From: Sandarakinorhabdus limnophila DSM 17366 | GTDB taxonomy: Bacteria; Pseudomonadota; Alphaproteobacteria; Sphingomonadales; Sphingomonadaceae | DNA length: 64,000 nt | NCBI RefSeq assembly: GCF_000420765.1 | Contig: NZ_ATVO01000009.1 | Coordinates: 1 to 64,000 of the forward strand | Reading direction: 5' to 3' | Shown: one piece after another, positions 19,142 to 54,548 of the stretch | How the letters are laid out: each line of letters begins with the position of its first letter | Position numbering within the stretch: the first letter of the stretch is position 1 | Notes under the pieces: generated by a model | Seen by the model: the letters and a program-made list of their open reading frames with translations, nothing else | Database searches by the model: none | What the model was told of the DNA's origin: nothing | Translations under genes and position numbers: made by a program

Positions 19142-20008
19142 TTAGCCGGCAAATGACAGCGGTAGCCGCAGAAAGCGCCGCCCCTGCGCATCGGGCGGCG
19201 GCAGCTCGCCAGCTGCGATATTCACCTGCAGGCTTGGCAGGATCAGCGTTGGCGGAGCCAGCGTTGCGTCTCGGGCCTGACGCATCGCGACAAAGCTCCG
19301 TGCATCAACGCCATCATGCACATGGATATTGCCCGCCTTTTGCGCGGCGACGCTGGTTTCGCAGGCATAGTCTGCGCGGCCGGTTGGTAGATAATCATGG
19401 CCAACAAAAATCCGGGTTTCGGGCGGGAGCGCCAGGATCTTCAGGATCGAGGCATGCAGCGTTGCCGCATCGCCGCCGGGAAAATCACAGCGCGCGGTGC
19501 CATAGTCGGGCATGAACAGCGTGTCGCCAACGAAGGCGGCGTCACCGATGAGATAGGTCAGACAGGCAGGCGTGTGGCCGGGCGTGTGCATCACGCGGAT
19601 GGTCAAATTGCCCAGCGGCAGGGTGGCGCCATCTTCCACCAGAACGTCGAACTGGCGGCCATCGGTGGGCAGATCGTCCATGCCAAAGCGCGGTGCGAAC
19701 ACCTTCTGCACCTCGGCAATGCGGGCGCCGATCACCAGCGGTGCGCCACTTTTGTCCCGCAGCCAGTGGCCGCCGGCCAGATGGTCGGCGTGGGCGTGGG
19801 TTTCGAGGATCCAGCGCAGCTTGAGCTGGCGCCGCTCAACGACGCTGTACAACGCCTCAAGGCCGTTGTGTGAGACGCGGGCGCCCTTGGGTTCATAATC
19901 CAGCACCGCATCGATGATCACGGCCTCGCCCGTGTCGGGATCTGAGACGAGATAGGTCCACGTGTTGGTCGCATGGTCAAAGAACGGAGTGACGTCAGGG
20001 CGGTTCAT
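19142..20008 (-). CDS. MBL-fold hydrolase, persulfide dioxygenase/Blh-like
   Basis: A 288-residue metallo-beta-lactamase-fold enzyme with the metal motif THAHADHLAGG, then HTPGHTPACLTY, VGDTLF and VGHDYLP, matching the ETHE1/Blh group that oxidises glutathione persulfide or acts in hydrogen sulfide detoxification. The start at 20008 (MNRPDVTPFF) has GGAG six bases before it, better than the ATG at 20020. It is divergent from a BigR-like ArsR regulator across 65 bases containing a perfect palindrome, and a TauE exporter gene follows the regulator. This context strongly supports a sulfur-stress role. Confidence 0.87.
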   Translation of the reverse strand: MNRPDVTPFFDHATNTWTYLVSDPDTGEAVIIDAVLDYEPKGARVSHNGLEALYSVVERRQLKLRWILETHAHADHLAGGHWLRDKSGAPLVIGARIAEVQKVFAPRFGMDDLPTDGRQFDVLVEDGATLPLGNLTIRVMHTPGHTPACLTYLIGDAAFVGDTLFMPDYGTARCDFPGGDAATLHASILKILALPPETRIFVGHDYLPTGRADYACETSVAAQKAGNIHVHDGVDARSFVAMRQARDATLAPPTLILPSLQVNIAAGELPPPDAQGRRFLRLPLSFAG

Positions 20009-20030
20009 ATCGATCTCCAATGCCGCGACA

Positions 20031-20044
20031 TTAGCATTTGCTAA
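20031..20044. promoter_or_regulatory. palindromic operator between MBL hydrolase and ArsR/BigR-like genes
   Basis: TTAGCATTTGCTAA is a perfect inverted repeat (TTAGCA-TT-TGCTAA) in an AT-rich divergent intergenic region. ArsR-type persulfide sensors such as BigR bind AT-rich palindromes in this position and repress both directions. Functional assignment is inferred. Confidence 0.7.
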
Positions 20045-20073
20045 ATTAGTTTCAAGTAGGTATATCCACCGCC

Positions 20074-20394
20074 ATGAACATTTCCGCGAATCTTGAGGCC
20101 TTTGAGGCCAGCGCCGCAGAGGCGGCCAAGCTGATGAAGGCGCTCGCCAATGAGCGCCGGCTGCTGATCCTGTGCCAGATTGCCGATGGGGAACGCTCGG
20201 TGGGTTCGCTCAACGTCGGCCTGTCGCAATCGGCCCTGTCGCAGCATCTGGCGCTGCTGCGCGAAGAGGGCGTCGTGAAAACCCGGCGCGAGGCGCAGAC
20301 CATCTATTATTCGATCGCCAATCCGGCTGTGCACAAGGTGATTCAGACCCTGGCGGAAATCTACTGCCCGGAACTTGCCGGCCTGCCGGCCTGA
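20074..20394 (+). CDS. bigR: ArsR-family regulator, BigR/SqrR-like persulfide sensor
   Basis: A 106-residue winged-helix repressor. The recognition helix region reads LSQSALSQHLALLREEGVV, followed by the wing (TRREAQTIYYSI). Two cysteines, Cys34 (LILCQIADGE) and Cys98 (EIYCPEL), correspond to the pair that forms a sulfide-bridged link in BigR/SqrR when persulfides are present, releasing DNA. It faces the MBL hydrolase across a palindrome and precedes a TauE exporter by 21 bases. The gene symbol is by analogy. Confidence 0.85.
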   Translation: MNISANLEAFEASAAEAAKLMKALANERRLLILCQIADGERSVGSLNVGLSQSALSQHLALLREEGVVKTRREAQTIYYSIANPAVHKVIQTLAEIYCPELAGLPA

Positions 20395-20415
20395 CCCGCC
20401 AACAAGGATATTGCC

Positions 20416-21195
20416 ATGGAAGCCGGACTGGCACTCGGACTTCCAGCGGCCGTTGCCGGCGGGGCCATCATCGCCCTGCTGCTCGGCCTGTTTGGCGGCG
20501 GCGGCTCCGTGCTGGCGACGCCGCTGCTGCTCTATATCGTCGGCATATCTGATCCGCACGTGGCCATCGGCACGGGGGCGGCGGCCGTTGCCATGAACGC
20601 GGCGGCCAATCTGGCGGTGCAGGCGCGGGCCGGCACCGTGAAATGGCCGTGTGCGCTTTCCTTCGCGGGGGCTGGCCTCGCCGGTTCGCTGGCCGGCGCG
20701 GTTCTGGCGCAGCGCGTGGACGGGCAGGCGCTGCTCAGCGCCTTTGCGCTGGCCATGCTGGCGGTGGGGCTGGCCATGCTGCGCCCGGCGAAAGCCGAAG
20801 GCGACCCAGCGGTGCGGCTTGATCTGCCGATGACGCTGAAGCTGGTGCCGGCCGGGCTTGTTGTTGGCCTTGCGGCGGGCTTCTTCGGGATCGGTGGCGG
20901 TTTCCTGATCGTGCCCGGCCTGATGGCGGCCACCGGCATGACGCTGGCCAACGCCGCGGCCTCCTCATTGGTTTCGGTGATGGTGTTCGGCGTCGCGACG
21001 GCCGGCACTTATGCAGTGGCCGGCCGAGTGGATGGCCCGGCACTGCTGGCGATGGTGGCCGGCGGGCTCATCGGCGTGCTGGCCGCCAAACCACTGGCGC
21101 CGCGTCTTGCCACCCGCGCCGCCTTGGCCCGCCGGCTGTTCGCGATCATGGTGATCCTGACGGCGCTGTACGTCGGCTGGCGCTCACTGGGATGA
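20416..21195 (+). CDS. TauE/SafE-family sulfite/organosulfur anion exporter
   Basis: A 259-residue inner-membrane protein with about eight helices and two family repeats, marked by LLGLFGGGGSVLATPLLL and GLAAGFFGIGGGFLIVPGL. TauE/SafE proteins export sulfite, sulfoacetate or related anions. It is 21 bases downstream of the BigR-like gene, so it is probably co-regulated and removes the sulfite or thiosulfate produced by the MBL persulfide enzyme. Confidence 0.9.
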   Translation: MEAGLALGLPAAVAGGAIIALLLGLFGGGGSVLATPLLLYIVGISDPHVAIGTGAAAVAMNAAANLAVQARAGTVKWPCALSFAGAGLAGSLAGAVLAQRVDGQALLSAFALAMLAVGLAMLRPAKAEGDPAVRLDLPMTLKLVPAGLVVGLAAGFFGIGGGFLIVPGLMAATGMTLANAAASSLVSVMVFGVATAGTYAVAGRVDGPALLAMVAGGLIGVLAAKPLAPRLATRAALARRLFAIMVILTALYVGWRSLG

Positions 21196-21303
21196 GGCGG
21201 GCAGCGCCAGGCCATCGTCGCACAGCACCACATAGATGGCCGGGATCACCAGCAGGGTGAGCAGGATTGAACTGGCCAGCCCGAACAGATGCCAGTTGTC
21301 AAA
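21184..21303 (-). pseudogene. C-terminal remnant of an RND efflux permease
   Basis: On the minus strand this reads FDNWHLFGLASSILLTLLVI followed by PAIYVVLCDDG and a stop. LLTLLVIPAIY is the typical last helix of AcrB/CzcA-type RND permeases. No upstream part of the gene exists; the preceding DNA is the start of the divergent GST-like gene's leader. The remnant overlaps the last bases of the TauE gene. Evidence of a past deletion at this point. Confidence 0.65.
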
Positions 21304-21357
21304 CCTTCCTCGCGGGCGCAGATCAGCCGCACCAGATCGAGAAAGGGCACCATCACC

Positions 21358-22353
21358 ATGTACATAATCAATGGCGCGCTCGGTTCACCCTATTCGATGA
21401 AGATGCGCGCGCTGATGCGCTATCGCCGTATTCCGCACCTCTGGGTCCACGGTGCGGACTCGCGCGAGGCGCTGGCCAGGGTCAAAGCACCGGTCATCCC
21501 GGTGATGGAATATCCCGATGGGACGTTCCACAATGATTCCACCCCGCTGATTTATGATCTGGAGGCGCGTCACGCCGAACGTTCCGTGGTTCCGCCAGAC
21601 CCGGCAAGTGCCTTCATCGCGCACCTGATCGAGGATTTTGCCGATGAATGGGTGACCAAGGCGATGTTCGGCTACCGCTGGCTGGAGGATGTGGACCAGA
21701 TCCAGATGAGCCGCTGGCTCGCCTTTGACGCGATGAAGGGCGGCGGGCTGGCGACGAGCCAGGGCTTTGCCGAACAGTTCCGCGCCCGCCAGGTCGGGCG
21801 GATGGCGATTGTCGGCTGCACGCGCGAAAATTTCCCGCTGATCGAAGCCTCGACCCACGCGCTGATGGCGGCGCTGGAGGCGCATGTGGTCGATCGCCAT
21901 TGCCTGTTCGGCACGCGCCCCAGCCTCGCGGAATTCGGCATATATGGCCAGTTATCGCAGCTTGGCGTTGACCCGACCGCGCAAACAATGATGCGCAAGG
22001 ACTATCCCTACAGCTTCCGCTGGCTGCTCCATATTGACGATATGTCGGGCATCGAGGGCCAATGGGATGCAGCAGATGCGCCCTTTGCGCCGATCATCGC
22101 CGCATGGCTGAAGCAGGTGGGCGACATCTACATGCCCTTCCTCCTCGCCAATGCCGCCGCGATCGAAGCCGGCGAAACGACCTTCAGCATGACCGCCATG
22201 GGCCTGCCCTACACCCAGGGTGTGTTCAAATATCAGGCCAAATGCCTGGCTGATCTGCGCGCGCGCCATGCCGCGCTGGATGCGACCGCGCGGGGACGCA
22301 TCGATCCGCTGCTGGCGGAGGCGGGGTGTCTCGACGCCTTGCTGAGCCGATGA
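21358..22353 (+). CDS. glutathione S-transferase-like protein (long form)
   Basis: A 331-residue protein whose first 80 residues form a thioredoxin-like GST domain (YIINGALGSPYSMKMRALMR; cis-Pro in APVIPVMEYPDG; NDSTPLIYDLEARH), followed by a long helical domain with FGTRPSLAEFGIYGQLSQLG. It is about 100 residues longer than standard GSTs. Ser and Tyr, rather than Cys, occupy the usual glutathione position. Its stop overlaps the start of the sulfatase gene (ATGA), so it is part of the sulfatase operon and may process a desulfated or halogenated product. The start is at 21358; GAGAAAGGG lies a little far upstream. Confidence 0.8.
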   Translation: MYIINGALGSPYSMKMRALMRYRRIPHLWVHGADSREALARVKAPVIPVMEYPDGTFHNDSTPLIYDLEARHAERSVVPPDPASAFIAHLIEDFADEWVTKAMFGYRWLEDVDQIQMSRWLAFDAMKGGGLATSQGFAEQFRARQVGRMAIVGCTRENFPLIEASTHALMAALEAHVVDRHCLFGTRPSLAEFGIYGQLSQLGVDPTAQTMMRKDYPYSFRWLLHIDDMSGIEGQWDAADAPFAPIIAAWLKQVGDIYMPFLLANAAAIEAGETTFSMTAMGLPYTQGVFKYQAKCLADLRARHAALDATARGRIDPLLAEAGCLDALLSR

Positions 22354-24140
22354 GCCCGAAGCGACCGGCAGCCGTTCTGGCCGCTCTGACCGTGCTGCAT
22401 CTGCTTGCGCCCGGCACCCACGCGGCCCCTGCGAAGCGCCCCAACATCGTAATCCTGCTTGCCGATGATTGGGGGTTCAGTGATGTCGGCGCCTTCGGCG
22501 GCGAAATTGCGACGCCCAATATCGACGCGCTCGCGGCCAAGGGTGTGCGTTTTTCGAATTTCCACGTCGCCGGTTCATGCTCGCCCACGCGGGCGATGCT
22601 GCAGACGGGCGTGATCAACCACCGTGCCGGCTTGGGCAACATGCCGGAGACAATCCCACCGGAACATCAGGGCAAGCCCGGCTATGACGCGCACCTCAAC
22701 AACCGCGTGGTGACCATTGCCGATCAGCTGCGCGCTGGCGGCTACCGCACCTATCTGACCGGGAAATGGCATCTGGGCCACACGCCCGACAGCCTGCCCA
22801 CGGCGCGCGGCTATGATCATGCGCTTGCGCTGGCCCAATCGGGCGCCGACAATTTTGAAGATAAGCCCAATCTGCTCATTTATGACCAGACCGAATGGAG
22901 CGAGGACGGCAAGCCGGCGAAACTGCCGGCGCGTTTCTATTCCTCGACCCTGATTGTCGACAGGATGATCCGCTATATTGACAGCGGCAACGCCAGCGGA
23001 AAACCGTTTCTGGCTTCGGTGAACTTCATCGCCAACCACACGCCATTGCAGGCGCCCGATGCCGACATCGCGGCCTATGCCGGGCGCTACACCGCGGGCT
23101 GGACAGCGCTGCGCAACCAGCGCCGGGCCGCAGTGATTGCCAAGGGCATGATGCCCGCAGGCGTTGCCATGGTAACCATGAATACCAGTGGCGACTGGTC
23201 GCAATTGTCGCCTCAGGAACGGCAGCAGCGCGCCGGTGCGATGGCGGCCTATGCCGGCATGGCCACAGCCATGGACCGTGAAATCGGCCGGCTGGTCGCG
23301 CATCTGAAGGCCATCGGCGAATATGAGAACAGCATATTCGTTTTTCTGTCTGACAATGGCGCCGAAGCCACCGACCCGATGGCGATGGGGGCATTTGCGC
23401 GCTGGAACGCCAATCATCTCTATGATCAAAGCATCGCCAGGCAGGGTCGCCCGGGCTCGCTGACTGCACAAGGCGCTGGCTTTGCCAGCGCATCGGTCTC
23501 GCCGCTGCGGGGATACAAGTTCAGCGCGAGCGAAGGGGGCTTGCGTGTGCCGATGATCATGGCCTGGCCGGGCAATCCGGCGATCAGGGGTGGCAGCGTT
23601 GCGACCGGCTTTGCCCATGTCACCGATATGCCGCCCACGTTGTTGGCGCTGGCCGGGGTGACGCCGCAGCAAGGCGTTTTTGCCGGGCGCCGTGTCGAGC
23701 CCATGATCGGGTTGAACCTGTCGCCGATGCTCACCGGGAGTACGCCATCCGTCCATCCGGCAGACAAGCCGCTGGGCTATGAACTGTCGGGCAACGCGGT
23801 GCTGTTCAAAGGCGATTACAAGCTGGTCAAGAACCTGCCACCTTATGGCGATGCCCGCTGGCGGCTCTACAATATCAGCGCCGATCCCGGCGAGACTGAT
23901 GATCTGTCGCGCGCCGATCCGGAACGATTTGCCGTCATGCAAAGCGATTATGCCGCCTTTGCCAGGGCCAACCAGGTGCTGCCGATGCCCGAAGGCTACA
24001 CGGCGCCCGACCAGATTTTCGCCAATGCATTGCGTACGTTGCTCATACCGCGGCTGCTCGAACTGTGGCCAGCTGGTGCCATATTGGTGGTAGCATTAGC
24101 GACCTTGATCCGGTGGCGCCGCCGCCGCGCTAAACGGTGA
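22350..24140 (+). CDS. type I sulfatase (arylsulfatase), C-terminally membrane-tethered
   Basis: Hydrolyses a sulfate ester in the periplasm. 596 residues: signal peptide (to about residue 25), metal and nucleotide-like start NIVILLADDWGFSDVG, active-site motif CSPTRAMLQTG whose Cys must be converted to formylglycine, TGKWHLGH, and FLSDNGAEA. After the catalytic domain comes a transmembrane helix (AGAILVVALATLIRW) with an Arg-rich cytoplasmic end, so the enzyme is anchored by its C-terminus. Coupled by four-base overlaps to the GST-like gene before it and the propeller gene after it. A lipoprotein FGE gene lies 2.3 kb downstream on the other strand. Substrate unknown. Confidence 0.93.
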   Translation: MSPKRPAAVLAALTVLHLLAPGTHAAPAKRPNIVILLADDWGFSDVGAFGGEIATPNIDALAAKGVRFSNFHVAGSCSPTRAMLQTGVINHRAGLGNMPETIPPEHQGKPGYDAHLNNRVVTIADQLRAGGYRTYLTGKWHLGHTPDSLPTARGYDHALALAQSGADNFEDKPNLLIYDQTEWSEDGKPAKLPARFYSSTLIVDRMIRYIDSGNASGKPFLASVNFIANHTPLQAPDADIAAYAGRYTAGWTALRNQRRAAVIAKGMMPAGVAMVTMNTSGDWSQLSPQERQQRAGAMAAYAGMATAMDREIGRLVAHLKAIGEYENSIFVFLSDNGAEATDPMAMGAFARWNANHLYDQSIARQGRPGSLTAQGAGFASASVSPLRGYKFSASEGGLRVPMIMAWPGNPAIRGGSVATGFAHVTDMPPTLLALAGVTPQQGVFAGRRVEPMIGLNLSPMLTGSTPSVHPADKPLGYELSGNAVLFKGDYKLVKNLPPYGDARWRLYNISADPGETDDLSRADPERFAVMQSDYAAFARANQVLPMPEGYTAPDQIFANALRTLLIPRLLELWPAGAILVVALATLIRWRRRRAKR

Positions 24141-25378
24141 AGGGCTATTGGCCAGGCCGCTGGCCCTGCGAGGACGGCGGCCCACGCCGGTTGCAGTCGG
24201 TTCCCGATCCCAAGGCCCTGGCAGAACCTGCCAGTCTGCGGCTCGCGGCGACCTCGCGGCGCCGGTTGATGACGACGATGACCGTACTCGGCGATCCGGG
24301 CGAGCTTTTTCTGCTGACCCATCAGGCGCTGCGATCGCGGATCGGGTTGCCTACCACCGCGCAGGTCGAGCGTATCGATCCGTTGACGCTGCGCCCTCTC
24401 GCCCGCAGCCCGCGCCTCGACGGCGGCCCGATCTGGCCGGGCGGGATGGCCGTCCACCGCAATGGCGATCTTTACATCGTCTATGGGCGCTACATCCATC
24501 GCCTAGACCGCGCAGATCTCGCTGTCCGCGCGGCAGCGCGATTGCCGGTCGATCAGCCCTATAACAGTTTCGTGATCCTCGATTCTGGGCTGATTGTGAC
24601 GAAGAATCTGTCAGTTCGCTCCACAGCACAACTTTGTGTGATCGATCCGGACGATTTGACCATGGCCTGCCCGCCGCTCGATTGCGGCGAGCCATCGGTC
24701 GCGCGGCTCAGCGCCGTTGGAAATACCGTCTATGTGGTGGGTGTGCGTACGATAACCCGCTATCATTGGGATGGCACTGCCTTGCGCCGCGACGATAGCT
24801 GGGCCTGCCCCTATATCGGCAACAGCCAGCGCAGCCATGGCTGGGATGCGGTGATCGGGGACCGGCACCTTTGGCTGATGGACAACGGCCAGCATCGCTA
24901 TCGAACAAGCATGGTCGGGCGCGGCGTTGCGCAGGCACCCAACCGGCTCATCCGCGTTGCACTTGCAGACGCTGAGGACTGGCAGGGCATCGACGTCAGC
25001 GGCTTACCGGGTGGCAGCATCACCAACCCGCCGCTCTGGGACGAAGCAAGGCAGATCGTCATCGCATATGACAGCGCCAATCGCGTCATCTGCGGCTTCC
25101 GGTTCGAGGAAGAGAAGCGCGCGCTCGTGCCACTGTGGAGGCAAGACGGTTTTGGCTGCGCCAGCCACATGTTGCATTTCCCCGAAAGTGGCCTGATTTG
25201 CACCAATGATTATCAGCGCCGCGAAGCGATCGTCCTGCTCGATATCGCTAGCGGAGCGACAGTTGCGCGGGTCGAAACAGGCGGGTTCATGCAAGGCGTG
25301 GTGTTTCCCTCGCCCGGCTGGAATGAAGATTTCTATTGGTGCTCGATGGACCAGGTGACGCGGATCGCGTTGACGTGA
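24137..25378 (+). CDS. propeller-like protein of unknown function in sulfatase operon
   Basis: A 413-residue protein built of repeated strand units with motifs such as WPGGMAVHRNGDLYIVYGRY, NSFVILDSGLIVT and ITNPPLWDEARQIVIAYDS, a pattern like SMP-30/gluconolactonase-type six-bladed propellers. No signal peptide is evident, so it is likely cytosolic. The GTG at 24137 overlaps the sulfatase stop (GTGA). The first 40 or so residues look unlike the rest, and an ATG at 24269 (MTTMTVLG) is an alternative start. It could be a lactonase or hydrolase acting on the desulfated product, but no catalytic residue set is recognised. Confidence 0.7.
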   Translation: MKGYWPGRWPCEDGGPRRLQSVPDPKALAEPASLRLAATSRRRLMTTMTVLGDPGELFLLTHQALRSRIGLPTTAQVERIDPLTLRPLARSPRLDGGPIWPGGMAVHRNGDLYIVYGRYIHRLDRADLAVRAAARLPVDQPYNSFVILDSGLIVTKNLSVRSTAQLCVIDPDDLTMACPPLDCGEPSVARLSAVGNTVYVVGVRTITRYHWDGTALRRDDSWACPYIGNSQRSHGWDAVIGDRHLWLMDNGQHRYRTSMVGRGVAQAPNRLIRVALADAEDWQGIDVSGLPGGSITNPPLWDEARQIVIAYDSANRVICGFRFEEEKRALVPLWRQDGFGCASHMLHFPESGLICTNDYQRREAIVLLDIASGATVARVETGGFMQGVVFPSPGWNEDFYWCSMDQVTRIALT

Positions 25379-25439
25379 TCCGCGCCGCCGAAAAATAGCC
25401 CGGCGTGTTCGGGGCTGGGGTGAAGCTGTTTGGTGATGT

Positions 25440-26336
25440 TCATAATTTCGCTACCTCCAATATCGCCTGCACAAAACCCTGCGGGTCGTTTTCCTGGATG
25501 AAATGGCCGCCCTTCAGCGTGCGGTGCGGTTGGCCTGCGGTACCGGGAACGCGGCCGATGAAACGCGTTTCACCGCCGCGGGTCACCGGATCGCCGTCGC
25601 TGAAGCAGCACAGGAAGGGCTTGTGCCACTGGTCGAACACCTGCCACGCGCGCTTCTGGTCCGGGATGGCGACGTTGTTTTCGAACGGCACGAAACTGGG
25701 GAAGATGCGCGCACCGGCCTTGTAGCTGCTATCCGGAAATGGCGCGTCGTAAGCGGCAATCTCGGCCGCGCTGAGCGCGCGTTTGGCCCCGGCGTTGATG
25801 ATCCGGCCGATCGGGAAGACCGGACTCCATTTGGAAAAGGCCCGCCACAGGGCAAAGGCGCGCGGGGGCGGGCCACCTTCAGGCAGGCCGCCATTGGACA
25901 ACACCACGCTGGCAAAACGATCCGGCATTTCTGCGACCAGGCGCAGGCCGATCAATGAGCCCCAATCCTGACAGACCAGCGTCATCCGCGTCAGGTCCAG
26001 CGCCTCGACCCATTGGCGCATCCAGCCGACATGGCGGGCATAGCTGTAGTCGGTCTTCCGGGTCGGCTTGTCTGATTTGCCGAAGCCGATCAGATCGGGG
26101 GCGATCACGCGAAAACCGGCTGCCACCACCGGGCCGATCATGTGCCGATACAGATAACACCAGCTTGGCTCACCATGCATCATCAGCACCACGGGCGCGT
26201 CGCGCGGCCCTTCATCGACATAATGGATGCGCAGGGGCGTGCCATCGCCAGGATCAGCGATCTCCACATAATGCGACGCGAAGGGAAAATCGCTGATCGC
26301 CGCAAAGGCGCTATCGGGCGTGCGTAAGACCTTCAC
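25440..26336 (-). CDS. haloalkane dehalogenase (alpha/beta hydrolase)
   Basis: Hydrolyses carbon-halogen bonds to alcohols and halide. 298 residues, HLD-I (DhlA/DhmA-like) type. The oxyanion/halide motif is HGEPSWCYLYR, the nucleophile elbow QDWGS carries Asp, and the catalytic His is in KGGHFIQENDP. A Trp next to the nucleophile (DWG) and the Trp of EPSW supply halide-binding groups. Sits between the sulfatase-GST-propeller operon and the FGE gene on the opposite strand. Its upstream region holds an inverted repeat shared in part with the TetR promoter region. Confidence 0.9.
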   Translation of the reverse strand: MKVLRTPDSAFAAISDFPFASHYVEIADPGDGTPLRIHYVDEGPRDAPVVLMMHGEPSWCYLYRHMIGPVVAAGFRVIAPDLIGFGKSDKPTRKTDYSYARHVGWMRQWVEALDLTRMTLVCQDWGSLIGLRLVAEMPDRFASVVLSNGGLPEGGPPPRAFALWRAFSKWSPVFPIGRIINAGAKRALSAAEIAAYDAPFPDSSYKAGARIFPSFVPFENNVAIPDQKRAWQVFDQWHKPFLCCFSDGDPVTRGGETRFIGRVPGTAGQPHRTLKGGHFIQENDPQGFVQAILEVAKL

Positions 26337-26363
26337 GATATATCCCCTGCTTTCGTTAATATT

Positions 26364-26378
26364 GGCACTATTGGTGCC
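26364..26378. promoter_or_regulatory. imperfect palindrome upstream of haloalkane dehalogenase
   Basis: GGCACTATTGGTGCC has GGCAC/GTGCC arms. Its reverse complement contains CAATAGTG, and the + strand contains TTGGCACT. Both short words recur between the TetR gene and the following operon (27966-27999). Candidate binding site for that TetR protein; inferred from motif sharing. Confidence 0.4.
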
Positions 26379-26395
26379 GTATTACCGCCGCAAGG

Positions 26396-27310
26396 TCAAG
26401 CCGAAGGCCCGGGTTTCGCCGTATCCACCAGCCGGAACCCGATATGATCGGTGCCCAGCCCGCGCTCCTGGAACTGGCGCGCGGCCGGGCGATAGCGGGC
26501 GCAATAGTTGGCGGCGCACAGATAGGATCCGCCCTTGATGATGTTGACCGGTTCGCCAGCATCGGCGCGCGATCCGCTGGAACTGGTCCATTCCCAGACA
26601 TTGCCGATCATGTCGTACAAGCCAAAGCCATTGGGTTTGAAGCAGCCCACGGGCGCACGCCCGGCAAAGCCATCGGTGCCCAGATTCCTCACCGGGAAAA
26701 TGCCTTGATAATAGTTGGCTTGCGGCTGGCCTTTCGCGTCAACCGGTTCCGGCAGTGCTGCTGCCCCGATGCGAGCGGCATATTCCCATTGCGCCTCGGT
26801 CGGCAGTTGCTTGCCGGCCCAGCGCGCATAGGCCTGCGCATCCTGCCAAGCGATCTGGACCACGGGTTCGCGGTCATGCCCGGTGATGCTTTCTTGCAAT
26901 CCGGATGGGTGCCGCCACTGGGCGCCCGTGACCCACCGCCACCAGTGCGGATCCGCTTGCGATGGAATGTTGAACACGGCTGACCCCGGCACCAGCATCT
27001 CGGGCGGGGTGCCGGGAATTTGGGGTGGTTCGCGCTCGGCCATTGTCCGGTAACCGGTGGCCTGCACAAAGGCGGCGAACTGGGCGTTGGTCACTTCATG
27101 GGCGTCGATCCAGAACCCCTTGACCGTGACCGTGCGCGGCGGGCCTTCTTCCGGATACTGCGGATGATCGCCCATCACGAAGCGGCCGCCGGGCACCCAG
27201 ACCATCCTGTCATCGGGCAGGCCGGCGCAGGCTTTGCCGGGCGGCGCCGGCGCCTCCGTGCAAGCTGACAGCAGCAGCACAAGACTGGCCGTGAACGCCA
27301 GACGTTGCAT
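26396..27310 (-). CDS. formylglycine-generating enzyme family lipoprotein (sulfatase maturase)
   Basis: Oxidises the active-site Cys of type I sulfatases to formylglycine. 304 residues with a lipoprotein signal (LVLLLSACTEA), so the mature enzyme is predicted to be membrane-bound outside the cytoplasm. The FGE-sulfatase domain is complete: WVPGGRFVMG, HEVTNAQFAAF, LPTEAQWEYAAR, GNVWEWT, and GGSYLCAANYCARYR with both copper-binding catalytic Cys that many paralogues lack. It follows the tetR gene with a one-base TGATG overlap. Two Cys-type sulfatases in this cluster are the obvious clients. Confidence 0.92.
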   Translation of the reverse strand: MQRLAFTASLVLLLSACTEAPAPPGKACAGLPDDRMVWVPGGRFVMGDHPQYPEEGPPRTVTVKGFWIDAHEVTNAQFAAFVQATGYRTMAEREPPQIPGTPPEMLVPGSAVFNIPSQADPHWWRWVTGAQWRHPSGLQESITGHDREPVVQIAWQDAQAYARWAGKQLPTEAQWEYAARIGAAALPEPVDAKGQPQANYYQGIFPVRNLGTDGFAGRAPVGCFKPNGFGLYDMIGNVWEWTSSSGSRADAGEPVNIIKGGSYLCAANYCARYRPAARQFQERGLGTDHIGFRLVDTAKPGPSA

Positions 27311-27930
27311 CAGTTGTCCGGCATCGCGGCCAAGGCATTGCCCAGTAAACGCCGAACCACCGCCTTGGCCTCTTCAACGGGCAGTTCCTGATCATGGCGC
27401 AACAGGCGCCAGGTCTGGAAACTCAGGATGACATGCAGACCGCGGGTGCCGGCCAGATCGACCTTTACCGTCGCCGGCAAATGGGCCTCCAGAGTTTCGA
27501 ATTCCAACCGCAGCATGCGGCGATAATCCTGCATCAGATAGGGCGACTGGAAGCGTTTGAGACTGGCCGAAATCCGGTAGGGCAGGATGGTTTCAAACAC
27601 CTTCGATCGCTTGTCGGCGATATCGAAAAGCCTTTCCTTCCAGTCTGCGCCGGCGGGGGCTTGCAGGATGATCGGCATCACCTGTGCCTCGATCACTTCG
27701 CCCATCTCGCGGTACAGCTCATCCATGTCGTCAAAGTGGCGGAAGACCGAACGCAGGCCGACGCCCGCCACCTCCGCAACCCGCGCCGCGCTGGGCGAAA
27801 CATCGCCCTTGCTGACCAGATCGAGCATCGCGGCGACAATCTTGCCCCGGCTGGATCGACTCCGTTCGCGTCGGCCATCGGCCAGCGGCGCTTGCGAACG
27901 TGATGCCATCTTGTGCGATACATTGGCCAT
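27310..27930 (-). CDS. TetR-family transcriptional regulator
   Basis: A 206-residue repressor: helix-turn-helix in VSPSAARVAEVAGVGLRSVF and RHFDDMDELYREMGEV, and an all-helical ligand domain behind it. The start at 27930 (MANVSHKM) is chosen because the 41 codons upstream fall in AT-rich promoter-like DNA. It is translated with the FGE gene and divergent from the 28080-30795 operon; it probably controls both and perhaps the dehalogenase. Ligand unknown, likely the sulfated or desulfated substrate. Confidence 0.88.
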   Translation of the reverse strand: MANVSHKMASRSQAPLADGRRERSRSSRGKIVAAMLDLVSKGDVSPSAARVAEVAGVGLRSVFRHFDDMDELYREMGEVIEAQVMPIILQAPAGADWKERLFDIADKRSKVFETILPYRISASLKRFQSPYLMQDYRRMLRLEFETLEAHLPATVKVDLAGTRGLHVILSFQTWRLLRHDQELPVEEAKAVVRRLLGNALAAMPDN

Positions 27931-27965
27931 GAACCCTGTTTTGCGGCAAACCAGCAATGGTGCAA

Positions 27966-27999
27966 GCAACAATAGTGATTGCAAAAATTTCTTGGCACT
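27966..27999. promoter_or_regulatory. candidate operator region between tetR and the sulfatase-2 operon
   Basis: An AT-rich stretch containing GCAACAATAGTGATTGC (27966-27982, arms GCAA/TTGC) and TTGGCACT (27992-27999). CAATAGTG and TTGGCACT both recur in the palindrome upstream of the dehalogenase gene. Consistent with a shared regulator site; not proven. Confidence 0.4.
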
Positions 28000-28079
28000 T
28001 TTAATGTCAATATCAGGGTTCGATCTGGCGGCAGCCGTGCGACGCGACGCCATGGACGGCCCGGAATGGAGCGGTTGGC

Positions 28080-28715
28080 GTGATGGCTGAGGGGATCATC
28101 TGGGGCACGGCGCTGCTGGCTTATGGCGCTTTCCGGCTCTGGTATGACAATTGGTCTGGCCCGCTGAAACCCGCGGAGATCGATACCTTTCTGGCCCAAA
28201 TGGCCGGCCGTTTCGAAGCAACCGGGAACAGCCCGGATGTCCTGCGCGCTTTCCTTGCGGCCGATGATGGCCGTGAGTTCGTGATGCTCAATCTGGTCAA
28301 GGCGCAATTGGACCCGGTGGAAGATCCGCAGACCGGGCAGATGGTGCAGGGCTTTGAACTGCTGAAACGCTATTCCAAACGCTTCATGCCGGTGCTGTTC
28401 CGCAATGGCGGCCATCCCGGCATCGTCGGGCGCAAAGTGGGCGGCTATGTCGATGCCTGGAACACCGAACCCGATCCCGGCTGGACGGTTTTCGGCCTGA
28501 TGCGATACCGCAGCCGCCGCGACATGATCAAACTGGTGATGGACCCGGCCTTCATGGCAGGCCACCCGGACAAGTTGCTCGGCACGCTGGCGACCTTTTC
28601 CTTCCCGACGCAGCGGGTGCTGTCCTTCTATGTGGGCCCACGGGTCACCGTGGCGCTGGCGCTGGCGCTGATTGCCGCCCTGTCGCACCTGATGATGCTG
28701 ACCATCGCATCATGA
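28080..28715 (+). CDS. unknown protein with terminal membrane helices, DUF1330-like core
   Basis: A 211-residue protein: an N-terminal hydrophobic segment (GIIWGTALLAYGAFRLWY), a soluble middle with REFVMLNLVKAQ resembling the first strand of the DUF1330/dimeric alpha-beta barrel fold, and a C-terminal helix (VTVALALALIAALSHLMML). GTG at 28080 has GGAG eight bases before it; an ATG follows directly. First gene of a three-gene operon ending in a sulfatase, with four-base overlaps throughout. Function unknown. Confidence 0.7.
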   Translation: MMAEGIIWGTALLAYGAFRLWYDNWSGPLKPAEIDTFLAQMAGRFEATGNSPDVLRAFLAADDGREFVMLNLVKAQLDPVEDPQTGQMVQGFELLKRYSKRFMPVLFRNGGHPGIVGRKVGGYVDAWNTEPDPGWTVFGLMRYRSRRDMIKLVMDPAFMAGHPDKLLGTLATFSFPTQRVLSFYVGPRVTVALALALIAALSHLMMLTIAS

Positions 28716-29167
28716 CCGCGCTGCTGCCGCCCAGCACCAACCACCATTATCGCGGCGCGCGCGCTGCGGCCTGGTTCCTGGCGCTGTACGGCGTTGGCTG
28801 GATCGTGCCGGGGATGATCCACAGCTTCCTGCCCGATGGTGGTGCAGGCACGATTGCAGGGCTTGATCTGGGCCACAATACGGCGCTGATCATTGGCCTG
28901 TTCGCTTGGGCCGGCGCCACGCAGATCGCGCACGGAATGGTGACCTTGGCGGTCGCCCTCCATTATCGCACGTTGGTGCCCTTGTTTTTGTTGGTCAGCC
29001 TGCTGGAGCGCAGTTTGCTCAGTTGGTCGGCCTGGGTTGGCCGCGCGCAGCCGGGCGTGCATCATCCACCCGAACATTATGCCAGCCTGATCCTGGTCCC
29101 CGTTATCCTTCTATTCCTGCTGCTCGCCCTGCGCCCTGCCGCGATTCAACCCGGAGGTCCACGATGA
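28712..29167 (+). CDS. small four-helix membrane protein of unknown function
   Basis: A 151-residue integral membrane protein with about four helices (AAAWFLALYGVGWIVPGMIH, ALIIGLFAWAGATQIAHG, LVPLFLLVSLLERSLLSW, LILVPVILLFLLLAL). The conserved-looking polar residues include His in MIHSFLP and AHGMV. It overlaps both neighbours by four bases, so it is co-translated with the sulfatase and may anchor or feed it. No family recognised. Confidence 0.7.
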   Translation: MTALLPPSTNHHYRGARAAAWFLALYGVGWIVPGMIHSFLPDGGAGTIAGLDLGHNTALIIGLFAWAGATQIAHGMVTLAVALHYRTLVPLFLLVSLLERSLLSWSAWVGRAQPGVHHPPEHYASLILVPVILLFLLLALRPAAIQPGGPR

Positions 29168-30795
29168 CACGCACGATGAAGTGGCTGGGCGCCTTGGCCC
29201 TGCTGGTTGGCGCGGGCTATTTGGGTTTTCAGCGGTATAAGATCTACCTTCCCGGCATCATCGGCGAATGGCGGGAACCAATTGCAGAGAATCGCCCGAT
29301 CAGTTGGGCGCAGGGTCCTGCGGTGGCCCCTTCTGGCGAGCGTCCGCCCAATGTCATCCTGATTGTCGCCGACGATCTTGGGATGAATGACATCTCGCTC
29401 TACGGCGGCGGCGTTGCTGGTGGCGCTGTGCCGACCCCCAACATCGATGTGATTGCCAAGCAAGGGGTTAGCTTTGCCAACGGCTATGCCGCCAATGCGA
29501 CCTGTTCGCCATCGCGCGCAGCCTTGATGACGGGGCGTTATCCGACGCGTTTCGGTTTTGAATTTACCGCCGTTCCAGCCGCCCTTGCTTCAAACCTGGC
29601 TCACAGCGGTGGCAAATCACCCTACCCAGCGATCTATCATGAAGAGCTGAACCACGATCTGCCTGCCTATGCCGACATGGGTGTGCCGCATGACCAGATC
29701 ATGTTGCCAGAAATCCTGAAAGCCAGAGGTTATCACACGATCCACATCGGCAAGTGGCATCTGGGCGAGGCCGAACCATTGCGGCCGACGTCGCAGGGAT
29801 TTGACGAAAGCCTTGGCATGCGTTCGGGCGCAGATCTTTTCATGGCCGAACACGATCCTCAGGTCGTCAACGCGAAGCTGCCATGGGATCCAATCGACCG
29901 CTTTTTATGGGCGAACCTGCCCCATGCCGTTTACTGGGGAAACAGTCAGCGCTTTCGCCCAAAGGGCCATCTGACGGACTATTTCACCGACAATGCGCTG
30001 GCCGCGATCGAGGCCAACAAGAACCGACCCTTCTTCCTGTATCTCGCCTACAATGCGCCGCACACTCCGCTGCAGGCGCTCAAGAGTGACTATGATGCGC
30101 TACCGCAGATCAAGGACCATACCCAGCGCGTTTATGGCGCGATGATGCGCCAGCTCGACCGGCGGATCGGCGATGTGATGCAAAAGCTGAAGGACACGGG
30201 GCTCGACGAGAATACTCTTGTGATCTTCACAAGCGACAATGGCGGCGCCTGGTATACCGGCATCAAGGATCACAACACGCCCTATCGCGGTTACAAAGGA
30301 ACTTTCTTCGAAGGCGGCATTCATGTGCCGATGATGATGCGCTGGCCGGGCAGGATCGCGCCGGGCACGGTCCGAAGCGATGTTGCCCAGCACCTTGATA
30401 TGTTTGCCACGATTGCCGCGGCAACCGGTGCGAACGTGCCAGGAGATCGCAAGATGGACAGCTTCAACCTGCTCGCTGCCGGACCGAAGCGCGAAATCAC
30501 CTTCTGGCGCTCTGGCGACTACCGCGTGGTGCGTGCGGGCGACTGGAAATTGCAAGTTTCGAAGCGCCCTGACCAAGCCTGGTTGTTCAACTTGGCGAGT
30601 GATCCTGCCGAGCGCGTCAACCTGGCCGCGCGCGAACCGCAGCGTGTTGCCCAGTTGCGCAAGATGATCGAAGATCAGAATGCGCAAATGCCCAAGCCGC
30701 TCTGGCCCGGCCTGCTCGAAGGCGCGATCCGCATCGACGTCCCACTCAATGCGGCGTGGAGGAAGGATCAGGAATACATCTATTGGACCAATTGA
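29164..30795 (+). CDS. type I sulfatase, N-terminally membrane-tethered
   Basis: A 543-residue sulfatase. An N-terminal helix (WLGALALLVGAGYLGFQ) without an obvious cleavage site anchors it to the membrane, leaving the catalytic domain in the periplasm. Motifs: NVILIVADDLGMNDIS for the metal site, ATCSPSRAALMTGRYPTR with the Cys destined to become formylglycine, IHIGKWHLGE, and FTSDNGGAW. It differs from the first sulfatase, which is anchored at its C-terminus, and the two are not close duplicates. Last gene of the 28080-30795 operon. Substrate unknown. Confidence 0.93.
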   Translation: MTRTMKWLGALALLVGAGYLGFQRYKIYLPGIIGEWREPIAENRPISWAQGPAVAPSGERPPNVILIVADDLGMNDISLYGGGVAGGAVPTPNIDVIAKQGVSFANGYAANATCSPSRAALMTGRYPTRFGFEFTAVPAALASNLAHSGGKSPYPAIYHEELNHDLPAYADMGVPHDQIMLPEILKARGYHTIHIGKWHLGEAEPLRPTSQGFDESLGMRSGADLFMAEHDPQVVNAKLPWDPIDRFLWANLPHAVYWGNSQRFRPKGHLTDYFTDNALAAIEANKNRPFFLYLAYNAPHTPLQALKSDYDALPQIKDHTQRVYGAMMRQLDRRIGDVMQKLKDTGLDENTLVIFTSDNGGAWYTGIKDHNTPYRGYKGTFFEGGIHVPMMMRWPGRIAPGTVRSDVAQHLDMFATIAAATGANVPGDRKMDSFNLLAAGPKREITFWRSGDYRVVRAGDWKLQVSKRPDQAWLFNLASDPAERVNLAAREPQRVAQLRKMIEDQNAQMPKPLWPGLLEGAIRIDVPLNAAWRKDQEYIYWTN

Positions 30796-31492: not shown

Positions 31493-32979
31493 ATGAAACC
31501 CATCTTCGCGCATTCCGCGACCCTTTTGGCTTGCCTGCTGCTTGCCGGATGCGGCGGCAGCGGTACCGCATCACCCGACACGGCCACCGCTTCGCCGCCC
31601 GCCACAATAGTGGCGCCGCCGGTTTTGCCCTTTGTTGAACTCAGCTTTGCCTACGAGGCGCACAGGATTGGCACCAAAGACATTGTGCCGCCTTACACCT
31701 ATGCCGGCGTCAACTATCCCGGCGGCGTGGCCGACATCTTCCCGCAGGGCGGCATCGCGGTCGACTTCGAGCGTGACCGCTTCCCCGAAGTCGTGGTCCC
31801 GCTCAACAAGGCTTATGCCACGCCGGCCTATGCGGCATTGCCCTATGTGGTGTTGTCCAACACCAGTGGTCGGCTCCGCCACGATGGCGCGCTCAACGCG
31901 CAATTGCCGTCAGTGTTCGGCGCGCGGCGCGCGGCAACGCTCACTGTGGCCGGCAATCCGGCGGCGTTCTTCGTCGCCCACAATGTGTCGGGCATCTACA
32001 ACGACCCCCGAGCGCACGGCACCGCGGTGCTGTTGGCGCAACGTTCGGGCTCGGTCGGCCAGGTAATGGGCGCGTTCCCCCGTCTGAACACCCGCGATGG
32101 CGTGCCGGAGGACGCGGTCGATGCCCATTCGATGGCGGTAGGCGACGTCAACGGAGACGGGCTTGAGGATATCCTGATCGGCAACTGGAACGCCTTTGGC
32201 GGCGGATACCCGCCGCTGTTCCTGCTGCAACAGGCCGATGGCCGTTTCAGCGCCCGCGTCGATCCGTTCCTGGCCCGCCTGCTGTCGGTGCCGGTGACCA
32301 ACCCGCAATCGGCCGGCAACGAAGGCTTCAACCTGCTGCTTGATCTCCACCTGGCCGACCTGAACGGGGACAAGTTCGCCGATCTGATCGCCGGCTTTGG
32401 GCATGGTTCGACGCCCAGCCTGCTGTTCATCAACAAGAACGGCCAGTTCAATTTCGATGAGCGCCAGGCGCTGCCGGCATCAACCTATGGCATCGATACC
32501 AACCTGCACCTCGAAACCCGAGCGCCGATTTCGACAACGACGGTGATCTCGATCTCTTGATCCAGCACACGCGCTATGTGCCTTATTACGGCGGTAATTA
32601 TCTGCAGCTGCTGCGCAACGACAATGGCAGCTTCACCGACATCACGGCAACGGCGCTTTCTCAGGTCGAAAGCGAGATCAAGGGCGAACGTCTGTCATGG
32701 TCGCCGAATGTGTTCGTGCGCGATCTCGATGGCGATCGGCTCGTCGATATCGTCTATGGCATCAACAATGGCCGGCTGCTGGTGTTTTTCAACCAGGGCG
32801 GAGGCCGCTTCACCCGCCTGACCACCACACTGCCGCGCGGCGAGAATGGCGTGCTGCTCACGGTCGCCGATTTCGACGCCGACGGAAAACAGGATCTGCT
32901 CTATTACCAGTACGGCGGCTCCGAGACGGAGAAGCTGTATTTCATCAACGTCTACCGGCTGGATTTCAAAAAGCCGTAA
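31493..32979 (+). pseudogene. VCBS/FG-GAP repeat lipoprotein, interrupted by a frameshift
   Basis: A surface lipoprotein: signal with lipobox LLAGCGGSG, then repeated calcium-binding FG-GAP blades with DVNGDGLED, DLNGDKFAD, DFDNDGDLD, DLDGDRLVD and DFDADGKQD. The first frame (355 residues) ends at 32560, while the rest of the domain continues in another frame to 32979. The switch falls in 32512-32527, where a single missing base would join NLHLET to ADFDNDGDLD. Either a true inactivation, a recoding site or a sequence error. The ribosome site AGGGAG and leader resemble those of the next gene. Confidence 0.8.
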
Positions 32980-33049
32980 TTCCAACATTCCCATTGCGCC
33001 TGCCCCGTCGGCGATGGCATCCCCGTCACACCAACAGGGAGCCACCGCC

Positions 33050-34105
33050 ATGAAGCCCGCCGTTGCCGCGATCGCGGCCCTTATCGCCACCGCTGCCACT
33101 GCCGCGCCGGCGGTTACCGAAGCCGATTTTGTCGCGAAGGATTTCCGCTTTTCCGACGGCAAGACCCTGCCCGCGCTGAAGCAGCATTACCGCACCATCG
33201 GCACGCCGGTTCGCAACGCCAAGGGCGAGATCATCAATGCCGTGATGGTGGGCCACGGCACCGGCGGCACTGGCGCGCAATTCCTTGTGCCGCAGTTCGC
33301 CCGCCTGCTCGAACCGGGCGGCACGCTGGATGCGGCCAAATATTTCATTATCCTGCCTGATGCCATCGGCCACGGTGGATCGTCCAAGCCGAGCGACGGC
33401 CTGAAAATGGCGTTCCCCGCCTATGATTATGGCGACATGGTGCGCGCGCAGGGACAGTTGCTCGATCATCTGGGCGTGAAGCAATTGCGGCTGCTGATGG
33501 GCACATCGATGGGCTGCATGATGGGTTTCCAGTTCGGCACCGATCTGCCTGGCCGCGCCGCCGCCATCATGCCGCTGGCCTGCAACGTGATCGAACTGGC
33601 GGGGCGCAACCGTATGTGGCGGGCGATGGCGATCCAGGCGATCAAGGCCGATCCCGATTGGCAGGGCGGCAATTTCACCAGGCCGCCCTTGAATGGCATG
33701 CGCGTGGGCGTGGCGTTGCAGGCGATGGCCAGTTCCGCCCCGGTGCGGATGCAGGCCGATACGCCCGATCACGCCAGTTCCGATGCACTGGCCGAACGCG
33801 CGATGGCTGCGGGACTTGCCAGCAGTGCCGACGCCAATGATCGCATTTATCAGCTGGAAGCCAGCCGCAACTACAACCCCGCGCCGCACCTCGCGCGCAT
33901 CACCGTGCCCGTCACCTGGGTGAACAGCGCCGATGATTTCATCAATCCACCCGGCGTGGGTGAGCCTGAACGCCATGTGCGGGCGATGCCGCAGGCGCGT
34001 TACGTGCTGATCCCCGAAAGCACGGAAACCCGCGGCCACAGCACCCACACGTGGAGCATCTTCTGGGAAGGCGAGTTGAAGGGGCTGCTGGCGCGCAGCC
34101 AGTGA
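33050..34105 (+). CDS. exported alpha/beta hydrolase of the homoserine acetyltransferase (MetX-like) family
   Basis: A 351-residue protein with a signal peptide (MKPAVAAIAALIATAATAAP). The nucleophile elbow is LLMGTSMGCMMGFQFG, the oxyanion region is VMVGHGTGGTGAQF, and the Asp and His of the triad are in NSADDFINPPG and ETRGHSTHTW. Cytosolic MetX enzymes are not exported, so this is a hydrolase/esterase relative rather than a methionine enzyme. It has the same short leader as the upstream VCBS lipoprotein gene. Convergent with the amidohydrolase gene, four bases apart. Confidence 0.85.
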   Translation: MKPAVAAIAALIATAATAAPAVTEADFVAKDFRFSDGKTLPALKQHYRTIGTPVRNAKGEIINAVMVGHGTGGTGAQFLVPQFARLLEPGGTLDAAKYFIILPDAIGHGGSSKPSDGLKMAFPAYDYGDMVRAQGQLLDHLGVKQLRLLMGTSMGCMMGFQFGTDLPGRAAAIMPLACNVIELAGRNRMWRAMAIQAIKADPDWQGGNFTRPPLNGMRVGVALQAMASSAPVRMQADTPDHASSDALAERAMAAGLASSADANDRIYQLEASRNYNPAPHLARITVPVTWVNSADDFINPPGVGEPERHVRAMPQARYVLIPESTETRGHSTHTWSIFWEGELKGLLARSQ

Positions 34106-53450: not shown

Positions 53451-54548
53451 GTGAATTTCGATTTTTCCGACGAAGCCAAGGAACTCGGCGAACAGGCGCG
53501 CAAGTTGCTCGCCGAAAAGGCCGGCACGGGCCCGGCGCGCAGGGCGATGGCCGCTGACGCACCGGCGATGGACGCCGCCCTGTGGAAAGAGATTGCCGAA
53601 CTGGGCTGGACCGCTGCACGCGTGCCGGAAGCCCATGGCGGCCTTGGCCTCACGGTCGAGGAAGTGGCCCAGTTGGCAGAAGCCGCCGGTGGCAGCCTCG
53701 CCCATGTGCCGCTCGTCTCCACCCTGCTCGCCACCGAAGCGCTGGTGCTGGCCGGCACGGAAGCCCAGCAGGCCAAGTGGTTGCCCGGCATCGCCAGCGG
53801 TGAGATCATCGCGTGCGTCGCCTGGAGCGAACCCGGTGCCGTGAGCCCGGCCACGGTGAAGACCGTGTCCAGCGGCAGCGCCCTGACCGGCGTGAAGCAG
53901 CCGGTGGCCGATCTTGCCGTTGCCCATGTCGCCATCGTGGCGGCCGCTGGCGCTGATGGCCCGCGGCTTTACATCGTCGATCTGAAGGGCGCGCAGACGG
54001 CGGCGGTGGAAACCGTCGATCTCGTCCGCCGCCACGGCAAGCTGACATTGAGCGCCACCCCGGCCGAAGCGCTGGGCACGGCCAGCGACTATCAGGATTG
54101 GCTCGACCGCGCCGCGGTGATCCTTGCCTATGAAGCCATTGGCACCGCTGGCGCCGCGATGGCGATGACGGTGGATTATGCCAAGACCCGCGTCGCCTTC
54201 GGCCAGAAGATCGGCCGTTATCAGGCGGTCAAGCACAAGTGTGCGGACATGTATATCAAGCTGGAACTGGCCCGCGCCCACGCGCTGCATGGCCTGGCCA
54301 TGATTGGCACCAATGGTGCCGAACTGCGTCAGGTGGCAGCTGCCGCCCGCGTCGCCAGCCTGGATGCGCTGGCCTATTGTGCCGAGGAAAATGTCCAGCT
54401 GCACGGCGGTATCGGCTTCACCTGGGAAAGCGATTGCCAATTCTATTACCGCCGCAACCGGGCGCTGGTCGCCGCGCTTGGTCCGCGCGGCTGGTGGGCC
54501 GATCGGCTGGTGCGCGCGCTGGAACAGCGCAACAGCGCTGCCGCGTGA
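53451..54548 (+). CDS. acyl-CoA dehydrogenase, non-catalytic-type partner subunit
   Basis: A 365-residue acyl-CoA dehydrogenase-fold protein. KTRVAFGQKIGRYQAVKHKC and VQLHGGIGFTWESDC are present, but the usual GTNEI segment with the catalytic-loop FAD contacts is replaced by YYRRNRALVAALG at the C-terminus. This is the pattern of the smaller subunit in two-gene alpha2beta2 dehydrogenases such as the steroid FadE pairs. The start is GTG 53451 with GGGGAG before it. The catalytic partner follows 59 bases later. Confidence 0.88.
   Translation: MNFDFSDEAKELGEQARKLLAEKAGTGPARRAMAADAPAMDAALWKEIAELGWTAARVPEAHGGLGLTVEEVAQLAEAAGGSLAHVPLVSTLLATEALVLAGTEAQQAKWLPGIASGEIIACVAWSEPGAVSPATVKTVSSGSALTGVKQPVADLAVAHVAIVAAAGADGPRLYIVDLKGAQTAAVETVDLVRRHGKLTLSATPAEALGTASDYQDWLDRAAVILAYEAIGTAGAAMAMTVDYAKTRVAFGQKIGRYQAVKHKCADMYIKLELARAHALHGLAMIGTNGAELRQVAAAARVASLDALAYCAEENVQLHGGIGFTWESDCQFYYRRNRALVAALGPRGWWADRLVRALEQRNSAAA

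Follow-up and report, generated by a model that had tools for sequence, protein, structure and literature searches.

The nine genes at positions 21,358 to 30,795 of the window, the 64,000-nucleotide stretch of Sandarakinorhabdus limnophila DSM 17366 DNA that was analysed here, are best interpreted, with a probability of about 65%, as a compact TetR-controlled regulon for the processing of a lipophilic natural product that carries sulfate and may also carry halogen. Many related bacteria have the same set under one common operator, which makes a single pathway for the breakdown of one compound the probable function. The idea of the original prediction that the genes work together, in the manner of a pathway, on a sulfated substrate is well supported by 14 loci that hold the core genes, by an operator that tracks the TetR gene and by intact catalytic residues.

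By combining a listing of open reading frames with family searches, we found all nine genes where they had been placed before, in a host genome of 2.61 Mb (99.99% complete, 11 contigs). On the forward strand, the gene for a GST-like protein of 331 amino acids (21,358–22,353; PF13417, 40 bits) is followed by those for the exported sulfatase SULF1 (22,350–24,140; PF00884, 189 bits; CSPTR) and the beta-propeller protein PROP (24,137–25,378), the latter recognised from an AlphaFold2 model. The reverse strand then carries the HLD-I haloalkane dehalogenase DHA (25,440–26,336; NF002043, 432.6 bits at a cut-off of 265), the formylglycine-generating enzyme FGE (26,396–27,310; PF03781, 248 bits; lipobox LLSAC) and the TetR-family regulator (27,310–27,930; PF00440, weak). 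These are followed, again on the forward strand, by the membrane-anchored DUF1330-like protein M211 (28,080–28,715), the small membrane protein M151 (28,712–29,167) and SULF2, a sulfatase with an N-terminal membrane anchor (29,164–30,795; PF00884, 196 bits; CSPSR). The TetR frame reaches 28,053, and its true start is probably near 27,930 rather than at that position, judging by homologues that align only from residue ~27–59 onward. Repeated four-base overlaps, as had been described, are present at four junctions (GST/SULF1, SULF1/PROP, M211/M151 and M151/SULF2), TetR and FGE overlap by one base, and the 59-base gap from FGE to DHA holds the DHA gene's own promoter region.

To survey conservation of the whole set, we used the GST as bait and searched 200 genomes of the family, followed by one genome per species for 84,980 species. 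The genes do co-occur in other genomes: the seven core genes (GST, SULF1, SULF2, FGE, DHA, TetR and M211) were found together in 14 loci of named genomes and the complete nine-gene set in five loci. The hosts of the core set are mostly freshwater Sphingorhabdus-type sphingomonads, including Sphingorhabdus rigui, with many MAGs from lakes, reservoirs and ponds, and more distant versions of the cluster occur in Sphingopyxis terrae, Sphingorhabdus EL138 and Erythrobacter. Some versions are without the dehalogenase, the GST or the propeller, and the linkage of GST, FGE and sulfatase holds down to ~40% GST identity. Because the genes are co-located in many genera and share a common operator, their grouping is not due to chance. 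The closest match among named records is a pond MAG (L082) with a GST that is 99% identical. On well-supported branches of the GST tree, the window's GST joins the Sphingorhabdus clade, apart from its Sandarakinorhabdus genus-mates, which suggests horizontal transfer.

A persulfide-dioxygenase-like MBL gene (reverse strand), an ArsR-type regulator and a TauE-like exporter (both forward strand) lie directly upstream of the GST gene (19,142–21,195); because just 4 of the 80 bait loci have such genes close to the GST, we rejected a link to sulfide oxidation and took these neighbours as incidental. To the right of the cluster (31,493–34,105), an FG-GAP repeat lipoprotein-like gene is followed by an alpha/beta hydrolase gene, both unlinked to the cluster in relatives.

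A comparison of promoters across loci showed that the palindrome TGRCAYT-N3-ARTGYCA precedes the GST operon, the dehalogenase gene and the TetR/M211 pair. Because the motif was derived from the same data in which it was counted and because related loci are non-independent, it is the effect size and not a p-value that carries the argument: 33 cluster loci (633 kb) contain 77 sites that deviate from the motif at one position or none, 76 of them in the 350 bases that precede a cluster gene, compared with a mean of 1.4 sites for control palindromes built from shuffled half-sites. At the same threshold, nine of ten sites in four whole genomes are located inside the cluster. When loci longer than 12 kb were considered, the operator was present in 28 of 29 that have the TetR gene versus 4 of 34 that do not, two of these four being truncated by contig ends. 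The shared regulation that a common pathway had been expected to show is thus visible as a common palindromic operator, so that neither of the two outcomes named beforehand as counting against the original prediction, a lack of co-occurrence and a lack of shared regulation, was observed. We infer from the position of the TetR gene and its co-occurrence with the operator that the TetR protein binds TGRCAYT-N3-ARTGYCA. One more operator-like sequence, at C2:49340 in Sphingorhabdus rigui, has unrelated housekeeping genes around it and was for this reason rejected as part of the regulon.

In the window, the candidate operator in the divergent TetR/M211 promoter (27,992–28,010; TTGGCACTTTTAATGTCAA) is a perfect match and the host genome's sole site at no more than one mismatch. 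The candidate operator in the DHA promoter (26,362–26,380; TTGGCACTATTGGTGCCGT) is a diverged copy, whereas orthologous DHA promoters carry the consensus. As in a regulon, the operator therefore stands in several promoters including that of the regulator itself, of which the window retains two of three. The third, in front of GST-SULF1-PROP, has lost the operator through a rearrangement in the host genome, whereas a sister genome retains it. Homology to the sister genome starts near 21,311, and upstream of this point the reverse frame reads ...HLFGLASSILLTLLVIPAIYVVL; positions 21,196–21,311 (reverse strand) are apparently the C-terminal tail of an RND transporter gene, which would have replaced the GST promoter and operator. 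The same rearrangement scar is found in the pond MAG. Speculatively, expression of half of the cluster may be constitutive in this genome or may come from read-through of the upstream TauE gene. A further operator-like near-palindrome, TTGGCACCAATGGTGCCGA, within an acyl-CoA-dehydrogenase-like frame (54,304–54,322), is probably a chance occurrence.

Both sulfatases carry the features of Cys-type S1 enzymes, that is, the C-x-P-x-R motif together with the metal- and sulfate-binding residues D, D, K, H, H, D, N and K, and these catalytic positions are kept in nearly all relatives. SULF1, which reads as having an N-terminal signal and a C-terminal membrane anchor, is nearest in the PDB to the arylsulfatase of P. 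aeruginosa (1hdh, 3.6e-112), which it matches over 507 residues with the same catalytic residues; it differs from this enzyme by its signal sequence, its C-terminal anchor and the co-regulated second sulfatase. FGE belongs to the FGE fold family, contains the C-x4-C active-site cysteines (GGSYLCAANYC) and is encoded next to the two sulfatases. Its active-site Cys pair is present in 36 of 36 relatives; 32 relatives align at the lipobox, and 31 of these have its Cys, so the lipobox is conserved across genera. Because of this lipobox, FGE is predicted to act in the periplasm, which is also the predicted destination of the sulfatases as judged from their signal and anchor sequences. The genome's two strong sulfatase genes and its only FGE of this type are all inside the cluster.

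The nearest PDB entry to SULF2 is 6prm (4.9e-78), and carrageenan-type sulfatases are its closest solved relatives, as would be expected if the sulfatases acted on algal glycans such as carrageenan-like polymers in a sulfated-polysaccharide locus. The nearest precedent that we found is among loci with a sulfatase and a maturase for sulfated glycans, such as the carrageenan loci of Zobellia, which also combine S1 sulfatases with a regulator and in which a TetR gene and a gene for a haloalkane-dehalogenase-domain protein adjoin the carrageenase gene CgkA, the pair responding to carrageenan (PMC5613140). In contrast to these loci, no glycoside hydrolase, polysaccharide lyase or sugar transporter was found among the annotated genes of the cluster and of related loci, and the partners are instead GSTs, DUF1330 proteins, acyl-CoA ligases and a long-chain acyl-CoA synthetase. 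Because the glycan enzymes are absent, and such a locus is recognised by glycan enzymes plus uptake genes, we rejected this assignment and consider a polysaccharide substrate very improbable.

DHA passes the NF002043 subfamily cut-off and has the HLD-I set of nucleophile Asp, two halide-binding Trp, acid Asp and His, and this D-W-W-D-H set is complete in 41 of 47 cluster homologues as well. DHA matches HLD-I enzymes (DccA, 5esr) over the whole length, with 5esr as the best PDB match (1e-112) and D-W-W-D-H in common; unlike them, it sits in a sulfatase regulon and is often tandem-duplicated. Sphingorhabdus loci (e.g. L064, 5,852–7,641) encode tandem haloalkane dehalogenases that are ~91% and ~54% identical to the window's DHA, both with all catalytic residues.

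The structure of danicalipin allows the functional groups of chlorosulfolipids to be matched to the gene set, and they fit. If the substrate were a chlorosulfolipid from chrysophyte algae, or a halogenated sulfolipid like it, it would offer two sulfates to the sulfatases and C-Cl bonds to the dehalogenases and the GST; many hosts come from a lake, reservoir or pond, the tandem dehalogenases of Sphingorhabdus are catalytically complete as far as sequence can tell, and relatives encode a long-chain acyl-CoA synthetase. Although this makes it an attractive candidate, we regard the substrate as improbable, since the reading is deduction throughout and some of the hosts come from the sea or from still other habitats. 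None of the papers searched was found to link bacteria to chlorosulfolipid breakdown. It is equally doubtful that the cluster is a dedicated pathway for halogenated sulfolipids, such as the chlorosulfolipids that chrysophytes make in fresh water. In such a pathway the sulfatases would act in the periplasm after maturation by a lipoprotein FGE, and together with HLD-I dehalogenases and the long GST they would remove sulfate and C-Cl; if this were true, the pathway would be without precedent, and HLD-I enzymes would gain a natural substrate.

The GST-like protein was assigned to the GST superfamily by PF13417 above its cut-off and by an AlphaFold2 model (pLDDT 90) that Foldseek matched to the GST fold, with TM values of about 0.5–0.6 to GSTs including StyI and LigF. 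The SPYS and NDS positions are kept almost invariably among 98 GST relatives. Its likeness to GSTs of epoxide and ether catabolism consists of a weak sequence match to IsoI and the fold matches to StyI and LigF; compared with these three, the 331-residue cluster GST has extra C-terminal helices, is distant in sequence from all of them and has other partners. The propeller protein PROP had no match in Pfam or NCBIfam. Its model (pTM 0.81) is a beta-propeller with BamB/PQQ-type matches, a predicted fold that says little on function, and PROP lies behind SULF1 in 10 of the 80 bait loci. Two membrane proteins had been listed as unknown, which holds for M151, a protein without any family above cut-off in family searches that is kept beside SULF2 in 13 of the 80 bait loci, and not for M211, which hhalign matched, with a value of 98.6%, to the DUF1330 proteins of related clusters, themselves identified as such by Pfam.

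We also considered the GST as a cluster-specific marker. Because many Novosphingobium and Caulobacterales loci pair this GST with other oxygenase-type or MBL/DUF1330 neighbours and have no sulfatase, it was rejected for this purpose. In Novosphingobium-type genomes without sulfatases (L116, L124–L126, L134 and L139), the GST lies beside what appear from sequence to be P450-like, flavin-monooxygenase-like and enoyl-CoA-hydratase genes. In Caulobacterales/Rhizomicrobium-type genomes (L147, L151, L154 and L158), it is accompanied by MBL, DsbA-like, TetR and DUF1330 genes, and these loci are possibly an ancestral, sulfatase-free form of the regulon.

Larger versions of the regulon occur in Sphingorhabdus EL138, an Erythrobacter and another sphingomonad, in which the operator also precedes a TonB-dependent receptor (TBDT) gene, acyl-CoA ligase genes, an ADH/MBL pair and a GST2/fatty-acid-desaturase pair. 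One ligase is above the NCBIfam cut-off for long-chain acyl-CoA synthetase, and the ADH, an enone-reductase-like enzyme, is related to curcumin reductase and scores below the cut-off of that family. The extended blocks further hold DUF2855, a DsbA-like protein, an enoyl-CoA hydratase and further GSTs. Because the operator precedes a TBDT and acyl-CoA ligases in these versions, the gene content favours a substrate that is lipophilic and chain-bearing and not a sugar.

For the TBDT and a FadD6-type ligase, the host genome has only distant paralogues, and none of them is linked to the operator. The window's version, with its desulfating, dehalogenating and GST genes, would therefore also be consistent with sulfur scavenging or detoxification, in which assorted sulfate esters are cleaved and reactive compounds neutralised by DHA and GST as general partners, with no dedicated carbon pathway, at least here; the GST relatives that occur elsewhere with P450, flavin monooxygenase or MBL genes point the same way. 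We consider this reading possible but unlikely, given that in the larger versions this operator also stands before genes for a TBDT, for acyl-CoA ligases and for an enone-reductase-like enzyme, and that a TetR switch that goes with the gene set looks substrate-specific and not sulfur-responsive.

For the preferred reading, a TetR-controlled regulon for a sulfated lipophilic compound, the identities of the genes, their conserved linkage, the intact catalytic residues and the common operator that goes with TetR are observed, and we infer the localisation, the order of reactions, the direction of regulation and the substrate class of the following scheme, together with the identity of the substrate, its halogenation and its actual catabolism. 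The compound would cross the outer membrane, via the TBDT where one is encoded, and two membrane-anchored periplasmic sulfatases with differing preferences would strip its sulfate groups. Their formylglycine would be formed by the lipoprotein FGE, probably in the periplasm. The desulfated product would then enter the cell, where the GST-like enzyme would process it with glutathione and the HLD-I dehalogenase by hydrolysis, and in the larger regulons the enone-reductase-like enzyme and the acyl-CoA ligases would feed beta-oxidation-type steps. TetR, bound to TGRCAYT-N3-ARTGYCA, would hold the promoters shut until the substrate or a product binds to it.

None of the papers searched was found to describe this gene set, and the original prediction likewise knew of no described pathway that contains it; each enzyme family is known, and their combination in one regulon appears to be undescribed. 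What had been a loose list of enzymes becomes a defined regulon that cultured strains also carry (Sphingorhabdus rigui DSM 29050 and Sphingopyxis terrae), with an operator that can be tested. The predicted lipoprotein FGE suggests that sulfatase maturation may take place in the bacterial periplasm, outside the cytoplasm. To our knowledge, the natural substrates of haloalkane dehalogenases, including HLD-I enzymes, are largely unknown. Because a conserved and often duplicated HLD-I enzyme shares one switch with sulfatases in this regulon, the question of its natural substrate becomes directly testable.
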